Assembly: GCF_007971225.1 (NCBI RefSeq) | Contig: NZ_CP042435.1 | Span: 1,739,501 to 1,803,500 of the forward strand | From: Panacibacter ginsenosidivorans | GTDB taxonomy: Bacteria; Bacteroidota; Bacteroidia; Chitinophagales; Chitinophagaceae | Direction of reading: 5' to 3' | DNA length: 64,000 nt | Shown here: positions 9,419 to 61,218 of the stretch, piece by piece | Layout of the letters: every line of letters begins with the position of its first letter | How positions within the stretch are numbered: the stretch's first letter is position 1 | Program-made: the position numbers and the translations under genes | The notes under the pieces: generated by a model | Seen by the model: only the letters and a program-made list of their open reading frames with translations | What the model was told of the DNA's origin: nothing | Database searches by the model: none

Positions 9419-9620
9419 TTCAGGCTGCAGAATATGCATGAAACCTTCGTTGCGTCGCACTCTTGTACGTTTAGTTCTTTATTAAAGAATTAAACAATAG
9501 TTTCAATTCGTGTAATTCGTGACTTAAAATTCGTGTCTCAATTGCTCATTTAATTTCCAACCGTACAAGTGAGTGACACAACAGGCGATGCCACAAAGAA
9601 CAAAGCTCGTCACAAAAAAT
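9413..9620. repeat. Interspersed repeat, short pair (C left, T right)
   Basis: Left arm 9413-9468 overlaps the stop codon of the GNAT gene and ends GTTGCGTCGCACTCTTGTAC. Right arm 9563-9620 begins GTACAAGTGAGTGACACAAC and reaches the stop codon of the next, convergent gene. The 94-base spacer contains three copies of an ATTCGTG word. Confidence 0.9.
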
Positions 9621-34729: not shown

Positions 34730-34787
34730 TTTTTTGAACCAAGCAATTGAATAAGCATCAGGCTTTCGTTGCGTCGCACACTTGTAC
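34728..34787 (+). repeat. Interspersed repeat, single arm, type C, forward
   Basis: Overlaps the amylase stop (AATTTTTTGAACC) and ends GTTGCGTCGCACACTTGTAC. It is the one forward arm not followed by a reverse arm; the next copy, at 37932, is also forward. Confidence 0.9.
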
Positions 34788-34818
34788 TGCAACAAATATT
34801 TTTATAAACCAAAATAAA

Positions 34819-35505
34819 ATGAGCGATCAAAATATTGCCAAAAAAAAGGCCGGTGAATATGCCGCCACATTAATAGAGCCTGGAATGACGATTGGCATTG
34901 GCACAGGCTCTACCGTATATTTTTTTATACAGGCATTGGCAAAGAAAATACAGGAAGGATTAATTATAAAGGGAGTTCCTACTTCAAAACAAACCCAGGA
35001 ACTGGCCACGGAATTAAATATTCCTTTAGTTGATTTGAATAATGTTGACCAACTTGATATTACTGTTGATGGCGCTGATGAAATTGATCCGCAACTGCAA
35101 TTGATAAAAGGCGGTGGCGGCGCATTACTGCAGGAAAAAATTGTAGCAGCCGCCTCAAAAAGAATGATCGTTATAGCAGATGAAAGCAAATACGTGCAAA
35201 CACTTGGTAAATTTCCTTTACCTGTAGAAGTAATTGATTTTGGCTGGAAGCACACGATGAAACATCTACAGCAACTGGGTTGTGAAAGAATCGTACTCAG
35301 GAAAAAGGATGATAAAATATTTGTCTCAGATCATGGACATTATATACTTGATTGCTATTTTCAGCAAATAAAAGATGCCGCACAATTGCACCACCAGATA
35401 AACAATATTGCGGGTGTTGCAGAAAATGGCTTATTTATAAATATAGCAACCAGTGCTGTTATTGCATATAAGGATGGCAGTATAAAAGAAATAAACAAAA
35501 GCTGA
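34819..35505 (+). CDS. rpiA: Ribose-5-phosphate isomerase A
   Basis: Interconverts ribose-5-phosphate and ribulose-5-phosphate. The ATG at 34819 (MSDQNIAKKKAGEYAA) is chosen because the longer frame runs back into a repeat arm. The 228-residue protein has IGIGTGSTVYFFIQAL (phosphate loop), TSKQTQELA, TVDGADEIDPQLQLIKGGGGALLQEKIVAAASKRMIVIADESKYV with the catalytic DGADE and KGGGGA loops, and FPLPVEVIDFGW. Full length. It converges with the FAD oxidoreductase gene with only 2 bases between stops. Confidence 0.95.
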   Translation: MSDQNIAKKKAGEYAATLIEPGMTIGIGTGSTVYFFIQALAKKIQEGLIIKGVPTSKQTQELATELNIPLVDLNNVDQLDITVDGADEIDPQLQLIKGGGGALLQEKIVAAASKRMIVIADESKYVQTLGKFPLPVEVIDFGWKHTMKHLQQLGCERIVLRKKDDKIFVSDHGHYILDCYFQQIKDAAQLHHQINNIAGVAENGLFINIATSAVIAYKDGSIKEINKS

Positions 35506-35507
35506 TT

Positions 35508-36632
35508 TTAAATAGCAGTAACCACTTCTTCTGCCAACCCAAAACTTAATGTCATTCCATTGCCACCAAGTCCATTTACAATGGTTACACCATTTTCAGG
35601 AGAATGAATAAACTCAACTTCCCCATTGGTACGTTTGGGATAAATGCCATGCCAGCTCTGGATTATGCTCCAGTCTTTGAACACAGCAAATTTTTGCATA
35701 TAATCAATGATCAGTTTATTGATAAATACTTTATCAAAAGGATCAAATACCAATCCATATTCATGGCTATCCCCTATTGTCAATTCACCTTCCGCATTTT
35801 GAGACACCATTACATGAATTCCCCATTTGATATAATCAGGCATAGTTGTTTCATAATATTCTTTCAATGCAGGTAATGATGCTGCTGATTGAAAACCTTT
35901 GTAATGGATAAGAGATAAGCCACCGCATAATGATGGGCCGATGCGCCAGCCACCAGGCTGCATGATCAAACGCATCATCTGCAATTTGCTTTTCGTAAAA
36001 TAATTCGCAGCAAATACTTCAGGATATAAAGTTTCAAGATCAGGACCGCTGCAGACATAAATAAGGTCAGCCTGCCATGTTTGTTTGCCTGATTTTACTG
36101 AAGGATAATTGATCTCATTTATTGCTGTATTAAAATAAAAAACAATTCCATACTTCTCTGTTATATAAGCAGGTAATTTTTCAATAGCCACTCTTGATTC
36201 AACGATCATCTCATCTTCATTCCATAAAGCGCCTTTTAATTCGAAAGGATTTACTGCTTCACTTTTTTGCAATGCCTGATTAGCAGTGATTGCAGCAATT
36301 GGTCTGTGTGCTTTCTCGGCTTCTGCTATTTCCTGCAGCACTTTCCATTCAAGATCGTTATAAGCAAGATGCAAACTGCCTACTTCATTGTGCCACAAAC
36401 CCGCTTCGGTGCAAACCTTTTTCCAGATTGCTTTTGAACGTAATGCTCTTTCATACAATTTACCAACAGGCTGACCGATGGGCCACACCATACCAAAATT
36501 TCTTACCGATGCACCAACTGCTTTTTCGTTTCTTTCAAAGACAGTTACAGCAAACCCATTTTCAGCAAGGCTTCTTGCCATGGCAAGACCAACAATACCG
36601 GCACCAATTACAATCGCATTTTTCTTAGCCAT
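35508..36632 (-). CDS. FAD-dependent oxidoreductase, TIGR03364 (phosphonate-associated) type
   Basis: A DadA/glycine-oxidase-fold flavoprotein of 374 residues: AIVIGAGIVGLAMARSLAENGFAVTVFERN is the FAD dinucleotide site, followed by the family's ASVRNFGMVWPIGQPVG, an active-site region ending GGWRIGPSLCGG, and the C-terminal IVNGLGGNGMTLSFGLA that closes the FAD site. The wording RNFGMVWPIGQ and the neighbouring phosphonatase genes identify the TIGR03364 group, members of which oxidise aminoethylphosphonate or its N-alkyl forms toward phosphonoacetaldehyde. It is the last gene of the leftward locus and overlaps the upstream MFS gene by 8 bases. Confidence 0.85.
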   Translation of the reverse strand: MAKKNAIVIGAGIVGLAMARSLAENGFAVTVFERNEKAVGASVRNFGMVWPIGQPVGKLYERALRSKAIWKKVCTEAGLWHNEVGSLHLAYNDLEWKVLQEIAEAEKAHRPIAAITANQALQKSEAVNPFELKGALWNEDEMIVESRVAIEKLPAYITEKYGIVFYFNTAINEINYPSVKSGKQTWQADLIYVCSGPDLETLYPEVFAANYFTKSKLQMMRLIMQPGGWRIGPSLCGGLSLIHYKGFQSAASLPALKEYYETTMPDYIKWGIHVMVSQNAEGELTIGDSHEYGLVFDPFDKVFINKLIIDYMQKFAVFKDWSIIQSWHGIYPKRTNGEVEFIHSPENGVTIVNGLGGNGMTLSFGLAEEVVTAI

Positions 36633-37929
36633 AAAAAGTAGGAGCTATTGATTGAACAGATAAAAATTTTCGTTTAAAATAAATAGCAGCAACTGCTGTT
36701 CCGGCAATGCCAACAACAGAAATAAATATTACTGCATGCGTAAAAAAACTTGTCCAGGAAAGTTGCACACCGATAAATTCTTTTGCAAACAAGATCGCCA
36801 CACTCCCTAAATAACCAAACGCATCTGCTATATACATCAGGAAACCAATATTACTTTTCATTCTGTATGTAGCAATCATACGTTCAAAATACAAAGCATT
36901 GAATGGAACATAACTCAGGTATAATCCTGTCCCAATCATTGTCATCCATGTAATGGGACCTACATAATGACCCATAAACAAAAAAGTAAATAATAATGCT
37001 AAAGCATAACCACCAATAACGAGGTAATGGTTGATCATAAAAGCTTTAAAATTATTCTTCACTAATATCAGCAGGCTCATGCATAACAATACGATCAGCG
37101 AAACAGGTATTTCTGTAATAGTAAAAATAGAAGCATTATTACCATATCCTAATTCAGTGTAGAGTTCATTTGCAAAATTATCCCTGAAGTCCCTGAGTAT
37201 TGTTAATAGAACATAAGTGATAACAATGGTAACTATACCCGGCATAAACATTGTAAGAAAAGCTTTGCGTTCTTCTTTAGTCATAGGAGGCCTCACACTT
37301 CGCAGTGCAATATCTTTTTCCGTTGGTGGTGGCACATGATTCAAAAGCCATACAAACAAAAGCATGGGCAAAACAAATAATCCACCCGTTATAAAAGGCA
37401 TCCACATCTCAGTTATATGCCAATCAAGTAAAATAGATTTACCTACTGTTTTTACAACACCGGAAGAAAATATAAAACTAATAGATAATACTGCACCCAT
37501 AAATTCCGTGGCTCTTCTTCCTTCAAGAAAACTAAATACAAGGCCCCATACCATACCTAATGGAAAACCATTAAGCAAAAGAAAAATAATATTATATGGC
37601 GCAGGAACTATTGCAAATAGTAATAAAGACATCCATGCCGTAATAATAAGTTTGATAATAGTTACAGCCCGCTTCTCCCCTGTCATGGATGAAATAAAAC
37701 GAATGCCATAAAATTTACTCAGCATATAACCAATAACCTGTGCAGTAACCAGCCAAACTTTATAATCAATATTCAAATATTCTATCCCGCTAAAACCAGC
37801 AGCAGTAAAGGGTTTGCGAAAAGCATACATACAGAAGTACACACAAAAAGAAACAAGCGCTGCATAGCCAGATAGTGCCCATACAGGGGCTTTCTCTAAT
37901 TTCCTTTTAAGTGGTTGCGATATAAACAT
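36625..37929 (-). CDS. DUF5690 / MFS transporter of the phosphonate locus
   Basis: A 434-residue inner-membrane protein with about 12 hydrophobic segments and a charged middle loop (PPPTEKDIALRSVRPPMTKEERKAF) dividing two halves, the layout of the major facilitator superfamily. Landmarks are FCMYAFRKPFTAAGFSG near the first segment and SYVPFNALYFERMIATYRMKSNIGFLMYIADAFGYLG late in the protein, which I associate with DUF5690. The first half resembles organophosphate:phosphate antiporters (YAFRKP). The gene overlaps the FAD oxidoreductase gene, so I infer that it imports the phosphonate substrate into the cytoplasm. Confidence 0.82.
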   Translation of the reverse strand: MFISQPLKRKLEKAPVWALSGYAALVSFCVYFCMYAFRKPFTAAGFSGIEYLNIDYKVWLVTAQVIGYMLSKFYGIRFISSMTGEKRAVTIIKLIITAWMSLLLFAIVPAPYNIIFLLLNGFPLGMVWGLVFSFLEGRRATEFMGAVLSISFIFSSGVVKTVGKSILLDWHITEMWMPFITGGLFVLPMLLFVWLLNHVPPPTEKDIALRSVRPPMTKEERKAFLTMFMPGIVTIVITYVLLTILRDFRDNFANELYTELGYGNNASIFTITEIPVSLIVLLCMSLLILVKNNFKAFMINHYLVIGGYALALLFTFLFMGHYVGPITWMTMIGTGLYLSYVPFNALYFERMIATYRMKSNIGFLMYIADAFGYLGSVAILFAKEFIGVQLSWTSFFTHAVIFISVVGIAGTAVAAIYFKRKFLSVQSIAPTFYG

Positions 37930-37931
37930 CT

Positions 37932-38152
37932 ATTATATGTACTTAGCGGTGGAATTACTATTTAGCTTTTGTTGCGTCGCACGCTTGTACACAAGCAAAA
38001 GTTTCAGCGGTTTACGAGTTAAAATGTTCACGAGTTCTCTGCATTTGAACAACGGGTAAACTTGTAAACATTGCTCAATAAAGTTCCGAACGATGAAGTG
38101 ATTGCGACGCAACAACCGGTGCCATGAAAACCGAAAGCCTGTAACAAAATTA
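37932..38152. repeat. Interspersed repeat, short pair with shared core spacer
   Basis: Left arm 37932-37990 ends GTTGCGTCGCACGCTTGTAC (type C). Right arm 38091-38152 is decayed at its inner end (GAAGTGATTGCGACGCAAC). The 100-base spacer includes TTCACGAGTTCT, GAACAACG and GTAAACTTGTAAAC, which reappear in the same order in the spacer of the 61-kb pair. It lies between the phosphonatase and MFS genes. Confidence 0.85.
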
Positions 38153-38842
38153 TTTTTCAATGATCCCTATCAACTCTTTCAAATCATCAATAATAAAATC
38201 GGGGTGATAAGGTAATAATGCTTCTCCTGTAAAAGCACCTGTTGTTATTCCTATTGAATATAAACAACCTGCATTCTTTCCTTCATTCACATCTACTTCA
38301 GTATCTCCGATTTTAATAACATGTTTTGGATCTGCTACGCCTGCAGCCTGCATCATTTTTTGAATCATGTATGGCTGTGGTCTGCCTGCTGGCACTTCGT
38401 TACTGCAAACTACATAATCAATTTTACCATCTTTTAGCCAACGCAATCTTTCGATAATAACATTGGTGATGTGCGTAGAGAACCCTGTATCAAGACCAAC
38501 CTTTATATCATGCGCTTTTAGCCAGGCAAATATTTCTTCTGCATGTGGCAATGGTTCTAACTGTGGTGCATTATAATAATATTGTACCATCAGTTCAATA
38601 AACCGGTCATGAATAATATTGATGTATTCTGCTGTAATGCCCGCCACATCTGATTCGTATTCTTCCAGCATCATTCTTATTGCCTCAGGTTTTTTATACC
38701 CCATCAGCGGATAGATTTTTTCATGTGGAATATCATAACCTCTTTCTTTCATCGCATCATGAAATGCCGCAGCAATCTCACCATTGTCTCTTACGGTAGT
38801 GCCTGCAATGTCAAATACTACAAGCTGAATATTTTTATACAT
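38150..38842 (-). CDS. phnX: PhnX-like phosphonoacetaldehyde hydrolase (phosphonatase)
   Basis: A HAD-superfamily enzyme of 230 residues that cleaves the C-P bond of phosphonoacetaldehyde to acetaldehyde and phosphate. The nucleophile is Asp11 in FDIAGTTV; Ala at the DxA position is the phosphonatase hallmark, where most HAD phosphatases have Asp. Lys51 in LMGYKKPEAI lies where PhnX has its Schiff-base Lys. Later motifs LDTGFSTHI, AGRPQPYMI and IKIGDTEVDVNEGKNAG are the usual HAD loops. The wording fits the PhnX-like TIGR03351 group. Its ATG overlaps the stop of the PhnZ-like gene by one base, so the two are coupled. Confidence 0.88.
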   Translation of the reverse strand: MYKNIQLVVFDIAGTTVRDNGEIAAAFHDAMKERGYDIPHEKIYPLMGYKKPEAIRMMLEEYESDVAGITAEYINIIHDRFIELMVQYYYNAPQLEPLPHAEEIFAWLKAHDIKVGLDTGFSTHITNVIIERLRWLKDGKIDYVVCSNEVPAGRPQPYMIQKMMQAAGVADPKHVIKIGDTEVDVNEGKNAGCLYSIGITTGAFTGEALLPYHPDFIIDDLKELIGIIEK

Positions 38843-39414
38843 TAACTTCTTTCTTTTAAATATTCATGAATCAAATGACGGAAATGATTGAGTGGCAGCA
38901 TGATCATTTCATGATTCTTTGCACATTCATCCCATAAACGCACTTTAATAATATCATCAAAATAAGGATGTTGTTTAAACAAAATAATTTCTGTTTCACT
39001 CATGGGGCCGCCCTGCCACATATTCAATGTTTGCAAACTCGCTTCTGATAATTTATCCTTATAGGAGGGATCTGTTGCAACAAGATAACGTTTTGCATCA
39101 ACATGTTTTTCTACCATTGCGCAAACACGCTCCGCAAAACCTTTACGACGTAAGTATTCTCCACCAAGCCCTTCGTGATTTACCACACCATATCCACCCA
39201 TTGCATCTGTGTTTTGTTCATGACGTAATAAATGGCCAACGTCATGCAAGAATGCGCCTAATATCAATTCCATATCACCACATTCTTCCATTGCCTGCAT
39301 GGCACATTGTATCATGTGTGATGTTTGCGATACGGGTTCACCATCATAATCTTCGTTACCGTAATTCTCAAAAAGGTGCATAATCTCATTCGTAACCATA
39401 TCTGCTTTACTCAT
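38842..39414 (-). CDS. phnZ: PhnZ-like HD-domain di-iron oxygenase
   Basis: The start MSKADMVTNEIMHL at 39414 gives 190 residues, the size of PhnZ. PhnZ uses a mixed-valent di-iron site and O2 to cleave (R)-1-hydroxy-2-aminoethylphosphonate to glycine and phosphate. All its key residues are visible at nearly the same positions: Tyr23 and Glu26 (YDGEPVS), His33, His57-Asp58 (FLHDVGH), His80 (VNHEGLGG), His104 and Lys108 (EKHVDAKRYL) and Asp162. The wording fits the TIGR03276 phosphonate-operon HD family. No gene for PhnY, the hydroxylase that makes PhnZ's substrate, is present here. Coupled to the phosphonatase gene. Confidence 0.88.
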   Translation of the reverse strand: MSKADMVTNEIMHLFENYGNEDYDGEPVSQTSHMIQCAMQAMEECGDMELILGAFLHDVGHLLRHEQNTDAMGGYGVVNHEGLGGEYLRRKGFAERVCAMVEKHVDAKRYLVATDPSYKDKLSEASLQTLNMWQGGPMSETEIILFKQHPYFDDIIKVRLWDECAKNHEMIMLPLNHFRHLIHEYLKERS

Positions 39415-39421
39415 GTAACAA

Positions 39422-40495
39422 TTATTTAAGTATAGTACCAATAGGCTGCATTACTGGATGCGCAGGTGTAAAATTAAGCCCAAGCAATGCTGCAATGCTT
39501 GTTGCAATTTGTCTTTGGTATAACAGCTCCGTGTTAGTTGCTTCGCCGGTTGGCTTTGTATCAGGGCCCATCGCTGCAATCCATATCTGGCCTGCATCTG
39601 CTATGTCTTTACCATGAGAGGTCCATTGTTCTTTTATAGCATCACCCCGACCATGATCACAGGTAACAATCAATGTTGTTTTGTTTTTATATTCAGGCAT
39701 TGACTGCAAAGTATTCCAAAGATCAGCAATCATGGCATCTTCTGCATGTGCACTTTTCAAATATTGATCATACATACCCGAGTGTGCAAAATCATCCGTT
39801 TCATCGAAAGCAACATACAGCACTTTTGGTTTGTTTTCTTTGAGATATGTTTTTGCTGCGAGGTAAGTATTGACATCCAAACGAACATCAATCGGCTTGG
39901 CTGAAAGAAATTGCAGATCATTCAACAACTGAAAAGAAGGCGATGAAAAATTAAATGTGTCCACACCTGCATTTACATAAATATTACTGCGCCATTTATT
40001 GAGTATGTATGGAAAACAATCCCAGGTTGCAAATGCTGCAACCTTGCCTGTATAACCTTTTTGTTTGTTGATAAACTCCAACACATTTTCATTCTTATTT
40101 GGAATCTTATCGTTGGAATTTACAGCCGTATCAGGATAGCCTGTAAAAATTTCATTGTAGCCGGGATATGAGAATTTATAGGGATTTGCATTGTTTACTT
40201 CACTGCCTTTTGTGCGGTTGCCATACAGTTGACCATGCTGTGCAACAGTGTTCCAAAGAAATGGAAACAGTTTTGCGCGACGTTCATTTATATCATTACT
40301 CCAGAAATTTTTTGTTATCTGCCCGGAATCGCTGGTAAATTTTTTGTTGACGATGATAGCAGAATCAACCCCTTTAAACACTTCCTGCCAGCGCATACCA
40401 TCGAGAGTAACGATGACCACATTTTCTGTTTTATGCTGGGCAAAAGAATGCAGCACGATAACAATAAAAAATACTATTGAAAATATTTTCTTCAT
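39422..40495 (-). CDS. Secreted alkaline-phosphatase-superfamily hydrolase
   Basis: MKKIFSIVFFIVIVLHSFAQ is a signal peptide, so the 357-residue protein acts in the periplasm or outside. It has the metal sites of the alkaline phosphatase/NPP superfamily: VVIVTLDGMRW (Asp), DETDDFAHSG (Asp and His), VTCDHGRGD (Asp-His) and SHGKD (His). The nucleophile position is Ser in FSYPGYNEIFTG, where NPP and phosphonoacetate hydrolase have Thr. Only 7 bases separate it from the PhnZ-like gene, which places it in the phosphonate operon. I infer that it releases a phosphonate from an ester or trims it before uptake; direct C-P cleavage is possible but unproven. Confidence 0.82.
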   Translation of the reverse strand: MKKIFSIVFFIVIVLHSFAQHKTENVVIVTLDGMRWQEVFKGVDSAIIVNKKFTSDSGQITKNFWSNDINERRAKLFPFLWNTVAQHGQLYGNRTKGSEVNNANPYKFSYPGYNEIFTGYPDTAVNSNDKIPNKNENVLEFINKQKGYTGKVAAFATWDCFPYILNKWRSNIYVNAGVDTFNFSSPSFQLLNDLQFLSAKPIDVRLDVNTYLAAKTYLKENKPKVLYVAFDETDDFAHSGMYDQYLKSAHAEDAMIADLWNTLQSMPEYKNKTTLIVTCDHGRGDAIKEQWTSHGKDIADAGQIWIAAMGPDTKPTGEATNTELLYQRQIATSIAALLGLNFTPAHPVMQPIGTILK

Positions 40496-40505
40496 TTGTG
40501 TCAGT

Positions 40506-40695
40506 TATTTTTTTGAGCCAAACTTTTTTTTATTACTCATCGTTCCTTGCGTCGCACTCCTGTACTGAAGATCAGGTTTCAGCTAAATACAGTTGCAACT
40601 GAATGCTGATGCCTGATAGTCCATACCTATCTGAACGTACAAGTGAGTGACACAACCAAAGCTTAATATTTTTACTAAAGCCGGGAACATAAAAA
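40506..40695. repeat. Interspersed repeat, short pair (C left, T right)
   Basis: Left arm 40506-40565 ends CTTGCGTCGCACTCCTGTAC, right arm 40637-40695 begins GTACAAGTGAGTGACACAAC and ends AAGCCGGGAACATAAAAA. The spacer is 71 bases. It separates susD from the hydrolase gene of the same operon. Confidence 0.9.
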
Positions 40696-40718
40696 CAAAA
40701 CGAAAGTTAATGAAAAGA

Positions 40719-40740
40719 GGCAAAGCCTTTCGGCTTTGCC
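40719..40740 (-). terminator. Stem-loop after the SusD gene
   Basis: On the minus strand GGCAAAGCC-GAAA-GGCTTTGCC, a perfect 9-bp stem with a stable GAAA loop, is followed by TCTTTTC. The T-run is weak, so it may only reduce expression of the downstream enzymes relative to SusC/SusD. Confidence 0.65.
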
Positions 40741-40761
40741 ATGGTTTAAGTGGACATTCAA

Positions 40762-42354
40762 TTATTTTATCAGCCACATCTGCGCATTGATATCATCATT
40801 GCCACCATATTGGTTTTGTAATGCGCTTTCGTAATTAGTGGCATTTGAAGTTCGCTCATCATAAGGATATTGAAAACGTAATGCGATCCTCGAACTATTG
40901 CCTGTACCGGGGCCTGTTGTAAAGGTTGGCACACCTGTTCTGCGCCATGCATAATATGATTCCAAACCTGAGTGGCGAAACAATGCCAGGTATCGTTGCT
41001 GCAGAATCTGTTTCAAACCTGTTTCTCCTGAAGCATATTTAATTAAAGGCTGCGCATAATAATTATCAAAATTTACGCTGACAGTATAAGTGCTGTATTT
41101 AACATCTGCACCACCCGGGCTGCCTGATTCATAAACATGTGTTGTCATATCGCCGTTTTCAGGAATATCATAAAAAGCCATAGAAGCTTTGATACCAGCT
41201 TTATAATAATCTTCTGCACCGCCTAATTTCCCCGAACTGATCCAGCCGCGGTTAATTGCTTCTGCTATATTGAAACACATTTCAGCGTAACCAATTTGCA
41301 CAGATGGTTCTGCAGTATAGGTTTGATAATAACGCCAGCGATTTAACTGGGAATATTGCCCATTGCCTGCTTTATTAAACATGATACCCAGATCCTCACC
41401 AGGATTAGCACCAACAAATGCATCGAAGCTTGTTGGGCTGGTACCCGCATCTACCAATGCTGTAGCGGGTTCTGAAACAATAAATACCCTGGGGTCTTTA
41501 AATGCAGTCAGCAAGCCAAGATAGGTTGAAGACATATTATATCGCAACCCATCAAAACCATAGCTATCGGGACTGTTGGGATAGTCATTCGTAGGATGTG
41601 TATAAATAAACTGCAGGTTATCTTCTGCACTTTCCATTACAGGATACTTAACAGGATCGCCTGTGATAGCTGCAAATTGAGATTTTATATTAAGATCTGC
41701 GTCATCTGCTTTTTTGCTTAATTCGATCAATAAACGCAACCGAAAGGTATTTACTGTTTTTTGCCATTTGGAAAGATCATTACCAAAATAAATATCACCC
41801 GATATAGATTCGCCTGCTTCAATTAAAGAGGCCAATTCTGTATTGGCGCTATCAAGCCATGCAAATGATTGCTTAAAAACATCTTTCTGCGCATCGTAAG
41901 AAGGAGTTAAATTGTCAAGGCCCTGCAATGCCTGTGTCATAGGTATATCACCCATTTCAAGACTCATCTTTGTAAAGAAGTAAGCTTTGAAAAATTTTGC
42001 CATTGCACTATATGGATTGACAGTTGCAAGACCTGCATTCTGCGCTTCCTGTTCCATTTTGATCACATTCTTTAAAGTGGCATAATAATCTGCACCAGAT
42101 TCAAAATCGTAGCGGTTATTTCCATAATAATCATAGTTGATGCAATAATATTGGCTCCAGCGTTCATACATGCCGGCAGGCCCATCATAAAGGTCATTTA
42201 ATATGCCATTCATTAATAAAGAAGAGGGCACCGAAGTTGGTTTATTGGGGTTTTGATATAACTCATCAAAACTTTTTTTACAACTGGTCATTAACGTTGC
42301 TGCCATTACAGCTACAACCAGTATGCCTGAATATTTTTTCATTTGTTTGTTCAT
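40762..42354 (-). CDS. SusD/RagB-family outer membrane lipoprotein
   Basis: A 530-residue lipoprotein: MKKYSGILVVAVMAATLMTSCKKS has the lipobox Cys in MTSC; the ATG four codons earlier is used as start, the later one is equally possible. DELYQNPNKPTSVPSSLLMNGIL and the helical TPR-like body fit the SusD-like group with NKP near the lipid anchor. SusD proteins lie over the SusC barrel like a lid and bind the ligand outside the cell. The gene follows SusC, 160 bases downstream, with a repeat pair in the gap. Ligand inferred to be a phosphonate or phosphonate-bearing molecule from the downstream genes. Confidence 0.92.
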   Translation of the reverse strand: MNKQMKKYSGILVVAVMAATLMTSCKKSFDELYQNPNKPTSVPSSLLMNGILNDLYDGPAGMYERWSQYYCINYDYYGNNRYDFESGADYYATLKNVIKMEQEAQNAGLATVNPYSAMAKFFKAYFFTKMSLEMGDIPMTQALQGLDNLTPSYDAQKDVFKQSFAWLDSANTELASLIEAGESISGDIYFGNDLSKWQKTVNTFRLRLLIELSKKADDADLNIKSQFAAITGDPVKYPVMESAEDNLQFIYTHPTNDYPNSPDSYGFDGLRYNMSSTYLGLLTAFKDPRVFIVSEPATALVDAGTSPTSFDAFVGANPGEDLGIMFNKAGNGQYSQLNRWRYYQTYTAEPSVQIGYAEMCFNIAEAINRGWISSGKLGGAEDYYKAGIKASMAFYDIPENGDMTTHVYESGSPGGADVKYSTYTVSVNFDNYYAQPLIKYASGETGLKQILQQRYLALFRHSGLESYYAWRRTGVPTFTTGPGTGNSSRIALRFQYPYDERTSNATNYESALQNQYGGNDDINAQMWLIK

Positions 42355-42373
42355 TTTATAAATGAATCGAAGT

Positions 42374-42519
42374 TTATTTTTTGTTTACCGGCTCTTGTTT
42401 TACATAGCATCTTTGTTGTGTCACTCACTTGTACTTACTGCACAGTGTTGATCTTAACGCTGAAGTGTGCGACGCAACAGGAGCTTAATGCCTGTTCATT
42501 AGCCCGGCCCATATTAAAA
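42374..42519. repeat. Interspersed repeat, short pair (T left, C right)
   Basis: Left arm 42374-42434 ends GTTGTGTCACTCACTTGTAC. Right arm 42461-42519 begins CTGAAGTGTGCGACGCAAC (its first bases are decayed), has GCCCGGCCCATATTAAAA at its outer end and overlaps the SusC stop codon. The spacer is about 27 bases, the shortest seen. Confidence 0.88.
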
Positions 42520-45500
42520 CACCACATTGATATTTAAACCATATCTGCGTGTAGTGGGAGATTGTAAACCCGTACCGCCAGTGCTATAATTATACTGGTC
42601 AAGGTCTACATCTTTAAAACGTTTATCTGCGTAGAAATACAGCAGGTTGCGGCCAATTAATGAAACACTTAATTTGTTGATAAAACTTCTTTGTATCCAC
42701 TGTTGCGGGAAGTTATAAGTAATAGTTACCTCACGCAGTTTTGCATAAGATTTGCTCATTAGGTTCGCTTCAGATACATTGTAATACTTACTTATGTAAT
42801 CCTGTACCAATGTAACCTGCGTGTTAGGCGCAAATTGAAGATCCTTATAATTTAATATTTCGCCTGTTTCTGAATTGTAGTTGATAGCAACTCCATTACT
42901 TACAGCAACCCCATCACCAACATAAATACCCGGGTAAGAAGCATCCCCTGCATGTCCATCATCAGAAAGCCTTGCTTCACCGAATGCACCTTGTACTGTT
43001 TCAATATTTCTGCCACCACGCATTGTTTTGTTGTGCATATAATCTGTGGTAACACCACCTACACTACCATCAAATTGAAAACCGATAGAAAGATTTTTCC
43101 AGCTAATATTGTTATAGATGCTCCACTGAAAATCCGCATTTAAGTACCCGAGGAATTGAGACACAGGATTTACCAATGGTTTGCCAGCTGCATCAAATAC
43201 TATTTTGCCGTCTGTTGTTTTTACAAATGCACTGCTGTAAAATGCGTCCACACGGTCACCTGCATGGAAGAAGGTATTATAGGTTGCTTGTCCTGGTGGT
43301 AATTCATCATACTTATCCTGAAAAGTGCTCCAGTTGACAAGCACATTCCAGTTAATACCACTCTTTGTTTTGATGGGTGTACCGGATAATGATAATTCAT
43401 AACCTGTTTTCTTGGTCTTTAAAGCATTCAGGTAATAATAATTATAACCCGTTGCAGATGAAATAGGGTTCTGAAGAATTCTTGGTCCATCAATATATTG
43501 AAAACCTGTTGCTGAAAAACCTAAACGGTTTTTCAGGAATTTAACATCTATACCAGCTTCATAACTTACGCGGTTAAAGGTTTTGATATTAGGGTCGTAA
43601 AGGTTTCCTGAATAATAGGCAGCGGTTTGATTATTGTACGGCTTACTGGTATTATATAATGCAACGAGGGAATAATCTGGTCCGCCGTAAGGAGACAAAT
43701 AATTGTTGCCATAATCCAGTGGATAATCATACAATGAGTTTCCTGATGGGCTTGTTCCAAAAGCGGTAATAGAATTAAACGGAGCAGTACCAACGGTTGA
43801 TGAAGTGGCATCGCCATGTACGGCCGCATAAGAAGCTCTTACTTTTAAGAAAGAAATTACATCCGGCATCTTTACGTAATCTGAAATAACTGATGACGCA
43901 GAAATACTTGGATAGAAATAGCTGTTATTTCCTTTAGGTAATGCCGATGATTTATCAACACGACCTGTAACGGAGATTGTTGCATATTTACCAAGGGATG
44001 CATCTAAAGAATAGTATGCACTATACACACGCATATCAGCATTAAAACTGCTTGCCTGTATTGGATTCAACGAATTACTAAAACTGTATACATTGGGGAT
44101 ATTAAGATAATCAGTAGATGTCCAGCTAGAATTATAATTAAACAATCTTGCATTACCTCCTACCAGGCCTGAAAGATTCAGGAATTTTGCGACAGTATAA
44201 TTATAGTTTAACTGGATATCAGAGTTGCTTTCAAAAAGATTTCGCCTATCTTCCCTGTAATCGCCCATGTTTCCTTCACGACCGTATGGGTGAGCAGAAA
44301 AAGGCATTTTTTCTGTTCTCAACAAATCATAAGTTGATATTTGGGTACGCAGGTTTACATTTAAATGATCGTCAATTTTGTAATTACCCGATACATAGCC
44401 ATAAATATCACTTTTGTAATGTCCGCGAAGCCATTCATTCACCATAAACCATGGATTATGATAACGCTGGTATTCCGCGAATACAGATTGTGTACCCACT
44501 TTCCCGGTTTGCCATTCACCGCGAATATCCGGTGCATTCACATCCCAGTCCGCACCAGTCCATACAGCAACATTATATAATAAACTGTTAGGGCCATAAT
44601 CCACATCAGGATAGTTTGGCGTGTACTGCCTGTTGAAATTAAGATTGGCATCTATCTTTAATCGTTTACTTACATTGTATGATCCAAACATGTTGAAGTT
44701 GGTAATATTCAACTCCATATTTGGAATCATGCTCTGCTGGTAGGAATGTGACAAAGAAAAACGAAGACTATAATTATCTCCTGTTGCGTTTAAAGCAATG
44801 TTATTCGTTGTCTGAAAACCTGTTCTTAAAAAATTTCCCAGGTTATTCTTGCCACGTGCAATCCATGGTGTAGGCTCTATATTACCCGTCCACGTCAATC
44901 CTCCGGGGTAAGTAGTGGTATAAGTTGTATTAGGATCGTATTTGCCATCGTACTGCGGAAGAAGACGTCCATCAAAACGTGGACCCCACACATCATAGTC
45001 ATTATCAAATAAACCACCACCTTTACCATTTCCAAAAGCGTATAACTGGTTTTCACCAGGACCGTATTCATCCTGCAATCTTGGAAAAGCAAGAAACCCC
45101 TGGTCAATCGAATTTGTTGAATTCAATTCAACCGTAAATCCCTTTGTTTTTAATCCTTTCTTGGTTGTGATAAGTATAGCGCCATATTGTGCACGGCTAC
45201 CATATAATGCAGCTGCAGCGGGGCCTTTTAGTACAGTATATGATTCAATATCGTCAGGGCTTATATTCCATGTGTCTGAACTAATGGGCACCCCATCTAC
45301 AACATATAAAGAAAGCTCATTGCCACGTAAAATAACGGTTGGCTTTCTTAACAATTCTGCGGAAGCACCAACTGATAACCCGGCAACCTTACCAGTTAAA
45401 CCGGTTATTGGATTTTGATCTCTGGCTTTAATAAGATCTTCTCCTTTTACTTCCTGTATAGAATAACCCAAACGTTTAATTTCTTTCTTTACACCTAAAG

Positions 45501-45843
45501 CTGTTACCACAACATCTGTAAGCTGGTTTTCGTTTGAAATTATTTCAATACTCAAAAAAGCATCGTCATTTACTGTAATTTTTTTTGTTTGATAACCTAC
45601 ATAAGAAACAGAAAGCTGGTCATTCTTATTTGCTGCAATAGAAAAATTACCTTCCGTATCCGTAAGCACAGATTTTTTTGTTGTAGTGTTTTCAACAGTT
45701 GCAGATGCGACAGGCTTTTTGGCTGCTGCATCTGTAATATGGCCTTTCAACTGCATGCTCTGTGCATGAACATGCAGCAATAAAAAAAGAGACAAACATC
45801 CAATAATCCATCTCTTTTGTACCTGGTTAAAATGCTGCTTCAT
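42514..45843 (-). CDS. SusC/RagA-family TonB-dependent receptor
   Basis: A 1109-residue outer membrane transporter. MKQHFNQVQKRWIIGCLSLFLLLHVHAQ is the signal peptide; residues about 30-110 form the carboxypeptidase-D-like domain (LKGHITDAAAKKPVASATVENTTTKKSVLTD); then the plug (VVVTALGVKKEIKRLGYSIQEVKGEDLIKA, the usual SusC start of the plug, and YVVDGVPISS), and a large barrel ending LNINVVF with a terminal Phe. With SusD it forms a TonB-driven importer. It is the first structural gene after the XRE-cupin regulator, upstream of phosphonate enzymes, so a phosphonate compound is the most likely cargo. Confidence 0.94.
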   Translation of the reverse strand: MKQHFNQVQKRWIIGCLSLFLLLHVHAQSMQLKGHITDAAAKKPVASATVENTTTKKSVLTDTEGNFSIAANKNDQLSVSYVGYQTKKITVNDDAFLSIEIISNENQLTDVVVTALGVKKEIKRLGYSIQEVKGEDLIKARDQNPITGLTGKVAGLSVGASAELLRKPTVILRGNELSLYVVDGVPISSDTWNISPDDIESYTVLKGPAAAALYGSRAQYGAILITTKKGLKTKGFTVELNSTNSIDQGFLAFPRLQDEYGPGENQLYAFGNGKGGGLFDNDYDVWGPRFDGRLLPQYDGKYDPNTTYTTTYPGGLTWTGNIEPTPWIARGKNNLGNFLRTGFQTTNNIALNATGDNYSLRFSLSHSYQQSMIPNMELNITNFNMFGSYNVSKRLKIDANLNFNRQYTPNYPDVDYGPNSLLYNVAVWTGADWDVNAPDIRGEWQTGKVGTQSVFAEYQRYHNPWFMVNEWLRGHYKSDIYGYVSGNYKIDDHLNVNLRTQISTYDLLRTEKMPFSAHPYGREGNMGDYREDRRNLFESNSDIQLNYNYTVAKFLNLSGLVGGNARLFNYNSSWTSTDYLNIPNVYSFSNSLNPIQASSFNADMRVYSAYYSLDASLGKYATISVTGRVDKSSALPKGNNSYFYPSISASSVISDYVKMPDVISFLKVRASYAAVHGDATSSTVGTAPFNSITAFGTSPSGNSLYDYPLDYGNNYLSPYGGPDYSLVALYNTSKPYNNQTAAYYSGNLYDPNIKTFNRVSYEAGIDVKFLKNRLGFSATGFQYIDGPRILQNPISSATGYNYYYLNALKTKKTGYELSLSGTPIKTKSGINWNVLVNWSTFQDKYDELPPGQATYNTFFHAGDRVDAFYSSAFVKTTDGKIVFDAAGKPLVNPVSQFLGYLNADFQWSIYNNISWKNLSIGFQFDGSVGGVTTDYMHNKTMRGGRNIETVQGAFGEARLSDDGHAGDASYPGIYVGDGVAVSNGVAINYNSETGEILNYKDLQFAPNTQVTLVQDYISKYYNVSEANLMSKSYAKLREVTITYNFPQQWIQRSFINKLSVSLIGRNLLYFYADKRFKDVDLDQYNYSTGGTGLQSPTTRRYGLNINVVF

Positions 45844-46191
45844 AACGTTAATTTGGTTATTGATGCGGCAAAACTACCTGTGTATGCATACTGTTTCCCA
45901 AGAAAGTTGGTTAACAAATAGTAAAGCAATTGTAAACTTTTTGTGCGTTAACAATTACTTAATGTGCAGTAATACTAAACTTTAAAATTGTTTCGTAAAA
46001 TAAAGAGAAAAGATTTTTTTAGCCGGCAATAATCTTTATGGCATCGGTTGTTGTGTCACTCTCTTGTACGTTCGGAACGTTAATGATCAATTGTAAATGG
46101 TGAATAAGAAATTGCTGTTATTCACCACTCAATTGCACGGGTGCACACCGGAACAAAAGCTAAACCGCTATTCAGCAGACGGGCACATAAA
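45844..46191. other. Regulatory gap upstream of the SusC gene
   Basis: This 348-base gap between the regulator stop and the SusC start must hold the SusC promoter. It contains one decayed pair of the interspersed repeat (46014-46193). Near 45930 there is AT-rich sequence with TTAACAA words, but no promoter could be assigned with confidence. Confidence 0.5.
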
Positions 46192-46193
46192 TT
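46014..46193. repeat. Interspersed repeat, short pair, right arm decayed
   Basis: Left arm 46014-46069 has TTTTTTTAGCCGGCAAT and ends GTTGTGTCACTCTCTTGTAC (type T). Right arm 46135-46193 is decayed at the core (GCACGGGTGCACACCGG) but keeps the outer half (CTATTCAGCAGACGGGCACA) and overlaps the stop of the regulator gene. Spacer about 65 bases. Confidence 0.75.
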
Positions 46194-46764
46194 ATTCTTC
46201 ATCAAAAAAATATATAACCAACATTTCATAAGGCTCATTGCTCAAACATTTTGTGTGGTGCTGTTTGCGGGCATTATAATAAAAAGAATCACCTGTTTCA
46301 AGTATATATTTTTTACCGTCGATTGTGTATTGCATTTTACCCTTGATCATATAGTCAAATTCATGAGCCTGTGTAGACACATACCCTTTACGTGCATCTT
46401 TTTCCTGACGGTATAAAACAACATCTACCAGTTTGCCATGTAGTTTGAAAGATGTTATACGATAATAAAATGAGCCCTTAGTATATTCCTTTTCGATAGA
46501 CTGTTGTGCCGAGGCTTTTATAATAAGCGGCTCATTGGGTTCTGTGGTATCAAGCTTATCAAAAAAATCATTCAGGTCTACATGCAATGATTTAATGATA
46601 CTAAGTAATACAGTCAAAGAAGGAACAGTGCGGTTGTTTTCTATTTGAGATATAAGGCCTTTTGTTACTCCCACCTCTTCGGCCAGTTGCTGCAAGGTTA
46701 TTTTCTTGCCTTTTCTTTTTTCTTTTATACGGTTACTTATTTGAAGAATAAGGTCGTTACTCAT
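46192..46764 (-). CDS. XRE-family regulator with C-terminal cupin domain
   Basis: A 190-residue regulator. Residues 7-65 form an XRE helix-turn-helix (ISNRIKEKRKGKKITLQQLAEEVGVTKGLISQIENNRTVPSLTVLLSI). Residues about 110-188 form a cupin: QAHEFDYMIKGKMQYTIDGKKYILETGDSFYYNARKQHHTKCLS, with the ligand-sensing barrel His residues. This design is common in regulators that sense small molecules, such as those of amino acid or polyamine use. It lies upstream of SusC on the same strand and is the natural candidate to control the phosphonate locus. Confidence 0.9.
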   Translation of the reverse strand: MSNDLILQISNRIKEKRKGKKITLQQLAEEVGVTKGLISQIENNRTVPSLTVLLSIIKSLHVDLNDFFDKLDTTEPNEPLIIKASAQQSIEKEYTKGSFYYRITSFKLHGKLVDVVLYRQEKDARKGYVSTQAHEFDYMIKGKMQYTIDGKKYILETGDSFYYNARKQHHTKCLSNEPYEMLVIYFFDEE

Positions 46765-47000: not shown

Positions 47001-47582
47001 TTATAAGCTTACTTGTTTTTCGAGCATCATCTTGCGCAGGTTTATTAATCCATAACGCATTCTGCCGAGTGCAGTATTAATGCTGCAGTTGGTAACTGCT
47101 GCTATATCTTTAAAACTCATATCACCAAAATGGCGCAGTACAATTACTTCGCGTTGTTCTTCTGGTAATGCAGAAAGCATTTGATGCATGCGATCATAAC
47201 CTTGTTTCTTAATGATCTTTTGCTCCGCATTTTCGTTTACTACTACAATAACATCGAATACATCTTTGTTATCGCCGGTAACAATAGTTGGCGTACGTTT
47301 AACCTTGCGGAAATAATCTACACAAAGGTTGTGCGCAATACGCATGGCCCAAGGAAGAAACTTACCTTCTTCATTGTAACGTTTGCTGCGCAATGTATCA
47401 ATGATGCGTAAAAAAGTTTCCTGGAAGAGATCCTCTGCCAGAAATTTGTCTTTCACAATAAACTGAATTGAACTGAACAATTTGTCCTTATAGCGGTTGA
47501 TAAGGGCTTCAAGGGCATAGGAATTGCCATCTTGAAAAGATAGTACCAGTTCGGTGTCGGTGAATTCGTTAAACTTTCTCAT
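47001..47582 (-). CDS. RNA polymerase sigma factor, ECF (sigma-70 family)
   Basis: Start at MRKFNEFTDTELVLSFQDGN (47582); upstream codons belong to the leader. The 193-residue protein has region 2 (ALINRYKDKLFSSIQFIVKDKFLAEDLFQETFLRIIDTL, with PWAMRIAHNLCVDYFRK) and region 4 (LSALPEEQREVIVLRHFGDMSFKDIAAVTNCSINTALGRMRYGLINLRK). These are the two core ECF domains. No anti-sigma gene is adjacent, so control is probably by another signal. It lies between the phosphonate regulator and a divergent uvrA-type gene; a link to either is not evident. The upstream gap 47583-47807 holds no recognised element. Confidence 0.92.
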   Translation of the reverse strand: MRKFNEFTDTELVLSFQDGNSYALEALINRYKDKLFSSIQFIVKDKFLAEDLFQETFLRIIDTLRSKRYNEEGKFLPWAMRIAHNLCVDYFRKVKRTPTIVTGDNKDVFDVIVVVNENAEQKIIKKQGYDRMHQMLSALPEEQREVIVLRHFGDMSFKDIAAVTNCSINTALGRMRYGLINLRKMMLEKQVSL

Positions 47583-47807
47583 AATAAATATGCTTTTGGA
47601 TTTCAAGCATGCCGCTTAAAGTACGTTTGTTTCGGTTTTTCTTGGACAGTAAGTGGCGATGAGTATAAATTTGACAATAGGCGGATGAGATTGTGTGGTT
47701 TTGTGAAGATATATAGAATATTGATTTTAATTGTATGCAATTTGTAAAAAATTTGTGAATTACTATAATTAAATAGTGCTTTGATATATTAAATTCAAAT
47801 AAAATTT

Positions 47808-60980: not shown

Positions 60981-61218
60981 TTTTTTGGAGCCGGGCAGAA
61001 AAACATATATGATGCATTAGTTGCGTCGCACACTTGTGCTGGAGAAAAATTTTCAACAGTTTACAGGTTTGTATGTTCACGAGTTCTTTGGATTTTGAAC
61101 AACGCGTAAACTTGTAAACTTCGTGAACGCGTAAACCTATGTTCAATAAATTTCTAAACGTACAAGTGAGTGACACAACAACTGATGCTATGAAAATATA
61201 CAGCCCGCAACCAAATCA
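60980..61218. repeat. Interspersed repeat, short pair (C left, T right) with shared core spacer
   Basis: Left arm 60980-61039 starts at the deoC stop and ends GTTGCGTCGCACACTTGTGC. Right arm 61160-61218 begins GTACAAGTGAGTGACACAAC. The 120-base spacer contains TTCACGAGTTCT, TTGAACAACG and GTAAACTTGTAAAC in the same order as the spacer at 37991-38090, plus an extra segment with CGTGAACGCGTAAACC. Confidence 0.9.

Follow-up and report, generated by a model that had tools for sequence, protein, structure and literature searches.

What role would a SusC/SusD pair, the outer membrane import system best known from polysaccharide utilization loci, play among enzymes of phosphonate breakdown? The question is raised by eight consecutive genes, all on the minus strand, at positions 35508-46764 of a 64,000-nucleotide stretch of the Panacibacter ginsenosidivorans genome (contig NZ_CP042435.1, positions 1,739,501 to 1,803,500; hereafter the window). 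The window lies inside one 5.53-Mb contig, and the nearest named relatives at the locus are Chitinophagaceae. Besides SusC and SusD (together SusCD), the genes encode an XRE-cupin regulator, a secreted hydrolase, a PhnZ-like oxygenase, a PhnX-like phosphonatase, a DUF5690 membrane protein, and a flavin adenine dinucleotide (FAD)-dependent enzyme of the PbfD type (Table 1). In our judgment this is probably an aminophosphonate utilization locus built like a polysaccharide utilization locus.

The gene set is conserved well beyond this genome. Loci were gathered from three starting points: the FAD enzyme (67 loci of at least 15 kb), DUF5690 (68 loci), and SusD (18 loci of at least 15 kb among 20 regions, all close relatives at 458 bits or more). 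Forty other 20-kb regions from the same genome set served as controls. SusC and SusD occurred together in 33 of the 67 FAD-first loci and in 0/40 control regions (Fisher p 4e-9, indicative only, as related genomes are not independent). The SusD hidden Markov model was built from these loci and its 0/40 may understate the background, for which SusC alone, found in 5/40 control regions, is the fairer figure. Starting from DUF5690, both were present in 40 of 68 loci, including those of Flavisolibacter, Filimonas, Cnuella, Mucilaginibacter, Pedobacter, Fulvivirga, and Roseivirga. The SusD-first loci contained the hydrolase in 17/18 cases, PhnZ in 14/18, and DUF5690 in 14/18, and all but one carried at least one phosphonate catabolic gene. 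In this sample the hydrolase was missing only from L242, a locus that begins at the end of a contig and has PhnA-like, aldehyde-dehydrogenase-like, and FAD enzyme genes.

The module recurs in many genera across Chitinophagales, Sphingobacteriales, and Cytophagales. Gene order differs among lineages, including divergent halves in Mucilaginibacter, and the set is kept despite this rearrangement, which favors a functional tie over an inherited neighborhood. The original prediction had read the locus as one for phosphonate use and had named the absence of SusCD co-conservation with the enzymes as the result that would speak against it. The association held from all three starting points, and the co-occurrence of SusCD, hydrolase, DUF5690, and phosphonate enzymes in several orders of Bacteroidota supports that reading.

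The catabolic half of the module is naturally swapped in two loci (L253:3682-8941 and L254:3403-10085), where the same SusCD, hydrolase, PhnZ, and DUF5690 genes are joined to PhnA-PhnY-PhnW instead of PbfD-PhnX. Both also carry a different FAD enzyme. In L253, PhnA scored 496 bits against a cut-off of 408, phosphonoacetaldehyde dehydrogenase 665 against 636, and PhnW 485 against 401. Because one importer type serves two different pathways for aminoethylphosphonate (AEP), AEP and its close derivatives are the likely nutrient.

The cytoplasmic enzymes of the window differ in how closely they match their families. The FAD enzyme scored 409.8 bits against TIGR03364 (cut-off 285.1), the family of PbfD, whose characterized members PbfD1 and PbfD2 oxidize AEP and N-methyl-AEP to phosphonoacetaldehyde (PMC10590968); the same oxidation is predicted here. 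The PhnX-like protein scored 182.6 bits against TIGR03351 (cut-off 218.9) and 126-128 bits against TIGR01422 (cut-off 220), and the PhnZ-like protein 198.1 bits against TIGR03276 (cut-off 214.6). Since these scores fall below the trusted NCBIfam cut-offs, both names are used at the level of homology, and the exact substrates of these divergent proteins are predictions. Their best matches among solved structures are PhnX (1rql) and PhnZ (4mlm, E 4.7e-43), respectively. The PhnX-like protein keeps the Asp12 nucleophile, the DxAGT motif, and the cap-domain Schiff-base Lys53, which is found in 110 of 111 members. All 11 residues checked in the PhnZ-like protein are present, including the metal ligands H34, H58, D59, H80, H104, and D161 as well as Y24, E27, and K108, and these nine are kept in at least 89 of 90 family members. 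Neither PhnW nor phosphoenolpyruvate mutase, for phosphonate biosynthesis, was found above cut-off in the same genome. It had also been claimed that no PhnCDE importer is present; this stands for PhnD (TIGR01098), which is absent from the whole genome, while no search was made for PhnC or PhnE. The absence of PhnD is in keeping with the reading proposed here.

Both halves of the importer are recognizable. SusC matched TIGR04056 with 436 bits over 31-1109 (cut-off 368) and the SusC signature TIGR04057 with 50 bits (cut-off 46), and SusD matched PF12771 with 209 bits over residues 36-497 and has the lipobox LMTSC in its translation. The secreted hydrolase matched PF01663 with 34 bits. Seven of its residues are invariant in an alignment of 24 sequences, namely Ser109 and the metal ligands D32, D234, H238, D280, H281, and H294. 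Ser109 lies in the motif FSYPGYNE, which we take to correspond to the site of the threonine nucleophile in nucleotide pyrophosphatases/phosphodiesterases (NPPs), and is presumably the nucleophile. At the sequence level, the single sequence gave no relatives and a profile gave weak hits only. An AlphaFold model (predicted local distance difference test, pLDDT, 90) was nearest to PafA by VIA-align (Z 29.0, 295 residues, 3.0 A) and also matched the Xac NPP (Z 25.5, 258 residues, 2.8 A), with ENPP6, ENPP7, a phosphonate monoester hydrolase, and sulfatases ranking close below PafA and the NPPs. A secreted diesterase-like enzyme of the PF01663, PF04185, or GDPD type was found in 25 of 33 PbfD loci with SusCD compared to 5 of 28 without. 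Because such enzymes accompany SusCD, we read the imported compound as an ester, and the cargo proposed originally, an ester or conjugate, thereby gains indirect support.

The DUF5690 protein (PF18943, 564 bits) is the proposed inner membrane step. It was present in all 33 PbfD loci with SusCD compared to 12 of the 28 without, and, counted by genome, in 56 of 59 with PbfD above the TIGR03364 cut-off compared to 27 of 190 without PbfD. Its model (pLDDT 90) has a major facilitator superfamily (MFS) fold, with SLC37A4/G6PT, the glucose-6-phosphate transporter, as the best fold match and GlpT further down the list. Two alignments found no relatives among solved structures at the sequence level. 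R38-K39 and R246 are invariant in 46 DUF5690 sequences, and hhalign sets them on R45-K46 and R269 of GlpT, which include its phosphate-binding arginines R45 and R269, in a weak match (probability 13%). A role in carrying aminophosphonates is plausible because AepP, a proven AEP permease, is related to GlpT (PMC8316502). We therefore propose DUF5690 as a candidate aminophosphonate permease.

DUF5690 genes were also seen in other settings. Ten loci of the gammaproteobacteria Dyella and Rhodanobacter (L152, L155, L157, L158, L161, L164, L165, L172, L180, and L183) encode DUF5690 proteins of about 50% identity and lack the other genes of the module in their vicinity; TetR-like and MFS-transporter-like genes adjoin the DUF5690 gene in L152 and L157. 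This looks like inter-phylum transfer with another use. In another locus (L117:8441-11317), a tandem DUF5690 pair lies next to PhnA-like, PhnW-like, aldehyde-dehydrogenase-like, and FAD enzyme genes.

We infer the substrate, the location of each step, the direction of transport, and the regulation as follows. SusD and SusC would import a molecule that contains AEP, N-methyl-AEP, or 1-hydroxy-AEP, most likely as an ester with a moiety resembling a lipid, glycerol, or a glycan. In the periplasm, the NPP/PafA-type hydrolase would cut the ester and release the free aminophosphonate, which DUF5690, as a GlpT/SLC37-like facilitator, would move over the inner membrane. Cytoplasmic PbfD would then convert AEP or N-methyl-AEP to phosphonoacetaldehyde, which PhnX would split to acetaldehyde and phosphate, and PhnZ would form glycine and phosphate from (R)-1-hydroxy-AEP. 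The amine or phosphonate is the probable signal for the XRE-cupin protein. This regulator is likely ligand-responsive, and its gene was present in 34 of the 68 DUF5690 loci compared to 0/40 control regions. A more specific version of this scheme, which we offer tentatively, is that the module forms a distinct locus class for complex phosphonates such as phosphonolipids and phosphonoglycans, in which SusCD would bind the conjugate, the hydrolase would free the aminophosphonate with a serine as nucleophile, and DUF5690 would represent a hitherto unrecognized family of aminophosphonate:phosphate antiporters. Such antiport would give the cell an outlet for the phosphate it produces.

Several observations weigh against an aminophosphonate locus of this design. 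No SusCD was detected in roughly half of the PbfD loci; evidently, use of small phosphonates does not require it. Sulfatases and phosphomonoesterases have the same fold as the hydrolase, which makes its diesterase activity conjectural. MFS folds are mutually alike, and the DUF5690 model matches many families of this superfamily almost as well as its best hit; the profile match to GlpT is weak, as given above; and DUF5690 is not confined to phosphonate loci, as its unrelated neighbors in Dyella and Rhodanobacter show. Finally, one genome (G021, locus L238) has the SusC-SusD-hydrolase trio alone. It contains no DUF5690, no PhnZ-like match, and no PbfD above cut-off, and its HAD proteins are distant, the best reaching 43.5 bits with TIGR01422 compared to 126-128 for the PhnX-like protein of the window. 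A genome of the same genus (G232, locus L106) has the full set. The trio in G021 is either a remnant or useful alone.

Usefulness of the trio alone is what would be expected if SusCD and the hydrolase served general organophosphate scavenging, taking up ordinary phosphodiesters such as lipid head groups or pieces of nucleic acid, and if the phosphonate enzymes were added downstream to deal with whatever part is aminophosphonate. This alternative, which follows the idea of the PUS loci of Flavobacterium that respond to low phosphate (PMC8115612), is unlikely in our view, though it survives better than the others. The closeness of the hydrolase fold to PafA, an alkaline phosphatase, is in its favor, as is G021. 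However, a phosphonate catabolic gene is missing from a single SusD-first locus, these loci have no recurrent cytoplasmic organophosphate enzyme, and where the catabolic route is exchanged, the replacement is another AEP route.

The preferred reading, that of an imported aminophosphonate ester, includes the case in which a phosphonoglycan bears the aminophosphonate and its sugar part is what SusCD recognizes, as in any ordinary polysaccharide utilization locus. SusCD systems are mostly glycan-binding and phosphonoglycans occur in nature (PMC8316502), but no glycoside hydrolase was recognized among the recurrent unassigned neighbors examined, not all of which were annotated, and we rate this case as rather improbable. 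Of the recurrent extra neighbors, PF04185 and GDPD phosphoesterases and a TonB receptor could be parts of the system. Least probable is that SusCD captures small aminophosphonates that are free, not esterified, and very dilute, with the hydrolase acting on another substrate: all of the cytoplasmic enzymes act on small aminophosphonates and TonB-dependent receptors also serve scarce small ligands, but oligomers are the main known ligands of SusD-type caps and the diesterase-like enzymes are concentrated in the PbfD loci with SusCD.

The aminophosphonate locus proposed here resembles several known systems. The SusCD-like PusCD complexes of Flavobacterium are induced by phosphate depletion and are co-located with phosphoesterases and phosphonate-degrading enzymes (PMC8115612), so the implication of the original prediction that such use of SusCD is unprecedented was too strong. 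PusCD clusters likewise place a SusCD-like complex beside secreted phosphoesterases, but they are defined by their induction and vary among themselves, whereas the module described here is one defined set: SusCD, NPP-like hydrolase, PhnZ, PhnX, DUF5690, PbfD, and often XRE-cupin. The PbfD-PhnX phosphonatase pathway, which is already known, shares the TIGR03364 FAD oxidase and PhnX, often without PhnW, but the report covers the catabolic enzymes and its text mentions neither SusC nor TonB (PMC10590968). From the PhnYZ oxidative pathway, the locus has a PhnZ-like enzyme in which every catalytic and substrate residue checked is present; no PhnY dioxygenase was identified in the locus, and PhnZ would thus need a ready-made 1-hydroxy substrate. 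The AepP/GlpT antiporters (PMC8316502) share with DUF5690 the MFS fold and AEP-enzyme neighbors, and an RK pair in transmembrane helix 1 and an Arg in transmembrane helix 7 may be in register, to judge from a weak alignment, but DUF5690 is a separate family. As in starch Sus and classical polysaccharide utilization loci, SusC, SusD, and a secreted hydrolase would feed an inner membrane carrier, but the enzymes are for phosphonates and no glycoside hydrolase was recognized in the locus.

What is new is the defined module, its breadth, the pathway swapping, and the proposed carrier role of DUF5690. Among papers available without subscription, we found none on a SusD protein in AEP use and none naming DUF5690. 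Bacteroidota with the module probably consume molecules that contain phosphonates in much the same way as polysaccharides. Transporters are known for free AEP; this gene set would supply a mechanism for obtaining phosphonates bound to lipids or glycans. A defined phosphonate nutrient would also join glycans and peptides as cargo of SusCD, DUF5690 would have a first testable function, and models of environmental Bacteroidota would gain a phosphorus source.

Table 1 Features of the phosphonate-associated locus, with positions in the window
Feature	Position	Strand	Evidence
XRE-cupin regulator (HTH_3 + Cupin_2)	46192-46764	-	Pfam
SusC-like TonB-dependent outer membrane transporter	42514-45843	-	TIGR04056, TIGR04057, CarbopepD_reg_2, Plug
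SusD-like surface lipoprotein (SusD-like_2)	40762-42354	-	PF12771, lipobox
Terminator-like hairpin, susD/hydrolase interval	40719-40740	-	GGCAAAGCC-GAAA-GGCTTTGCC then TCTTTT; perfect 9-bp stem
Secreted alkaline-phosphatase-superfamily hydrolase (NPP/PafA type)	39422-40495	-	PF01663
PhnZ-like HD-domain di-iron oxygenase (ATG start at 39414)	38842-39414	-	TIGR03276
PhnX/phosphonatase-like HAD hydrolase	38150-38842	-	TIGR03351, TIGR01422
DUF5690 major-facilitator-type inner membrane carrier	36625-37929	-	PF18943
PbfD-type FAD-dependent aminophosphonate oxidase	35508-36632	-	TIGR03364

The eight genes lie as originally placed, and the close packing noted among the enzymes was borne out, with a 7-base gap between the hydrolase and PhnZ genes, a 1-base overlap between PhnZ and PhnX, and an 8-base overlap between DUF5690 and the FAD enzyme. 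The description of the locus as one leftward run holds for strand and order; as a single transcript it is at odds with the four remaining gaps (348, 159, 266, and 220 bases) and the hairpin after susD. Because of these large gaps, the hairpin, and copies of a genome-wide intergenic repeat in all four of them, the co-directional cluster probably gives rise to more than one transcript. Promoter-like sites were not enriched in the locus (49 compared to 44.5 in shuffled sequence). An rpiA-like gene (34747-35505) borders one end, tail-to-tail. Upstream of the other is a gene for an extracytoplasmic function (ECF) sigma factor (47001-47606), which is parted from the XRE-cupin gene by its own intrinsic-terminator-like hairpin (46906-46883).

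A motif common to the four larger gaps was considered as an operator for the regulator and was rejected, as it is the genome-wide repeat and not specific to the locus. This short repeat, GTACAAGNGNGYGACRCAA, has 1596 exact copies in the genome, compared to 0 for the reversed pattern. The window holds 31 sites (for example 2092-2110, 9450-9468, 37972-37990, 42416-42434, and 61160-61178), with 0.06 expected by chance when up to 2 mismatches are allowed. None lies within an ATG-initiated open reading frame of at least 150 amino acids, though such frames make up 82% of the window, and the sites mostly alternate in strand. The repeat has two sub-forms, GAGTGACACAA and AGTGCGACGCAA, and is also dense in two loci of congeners (L074 and L213) and in L115.

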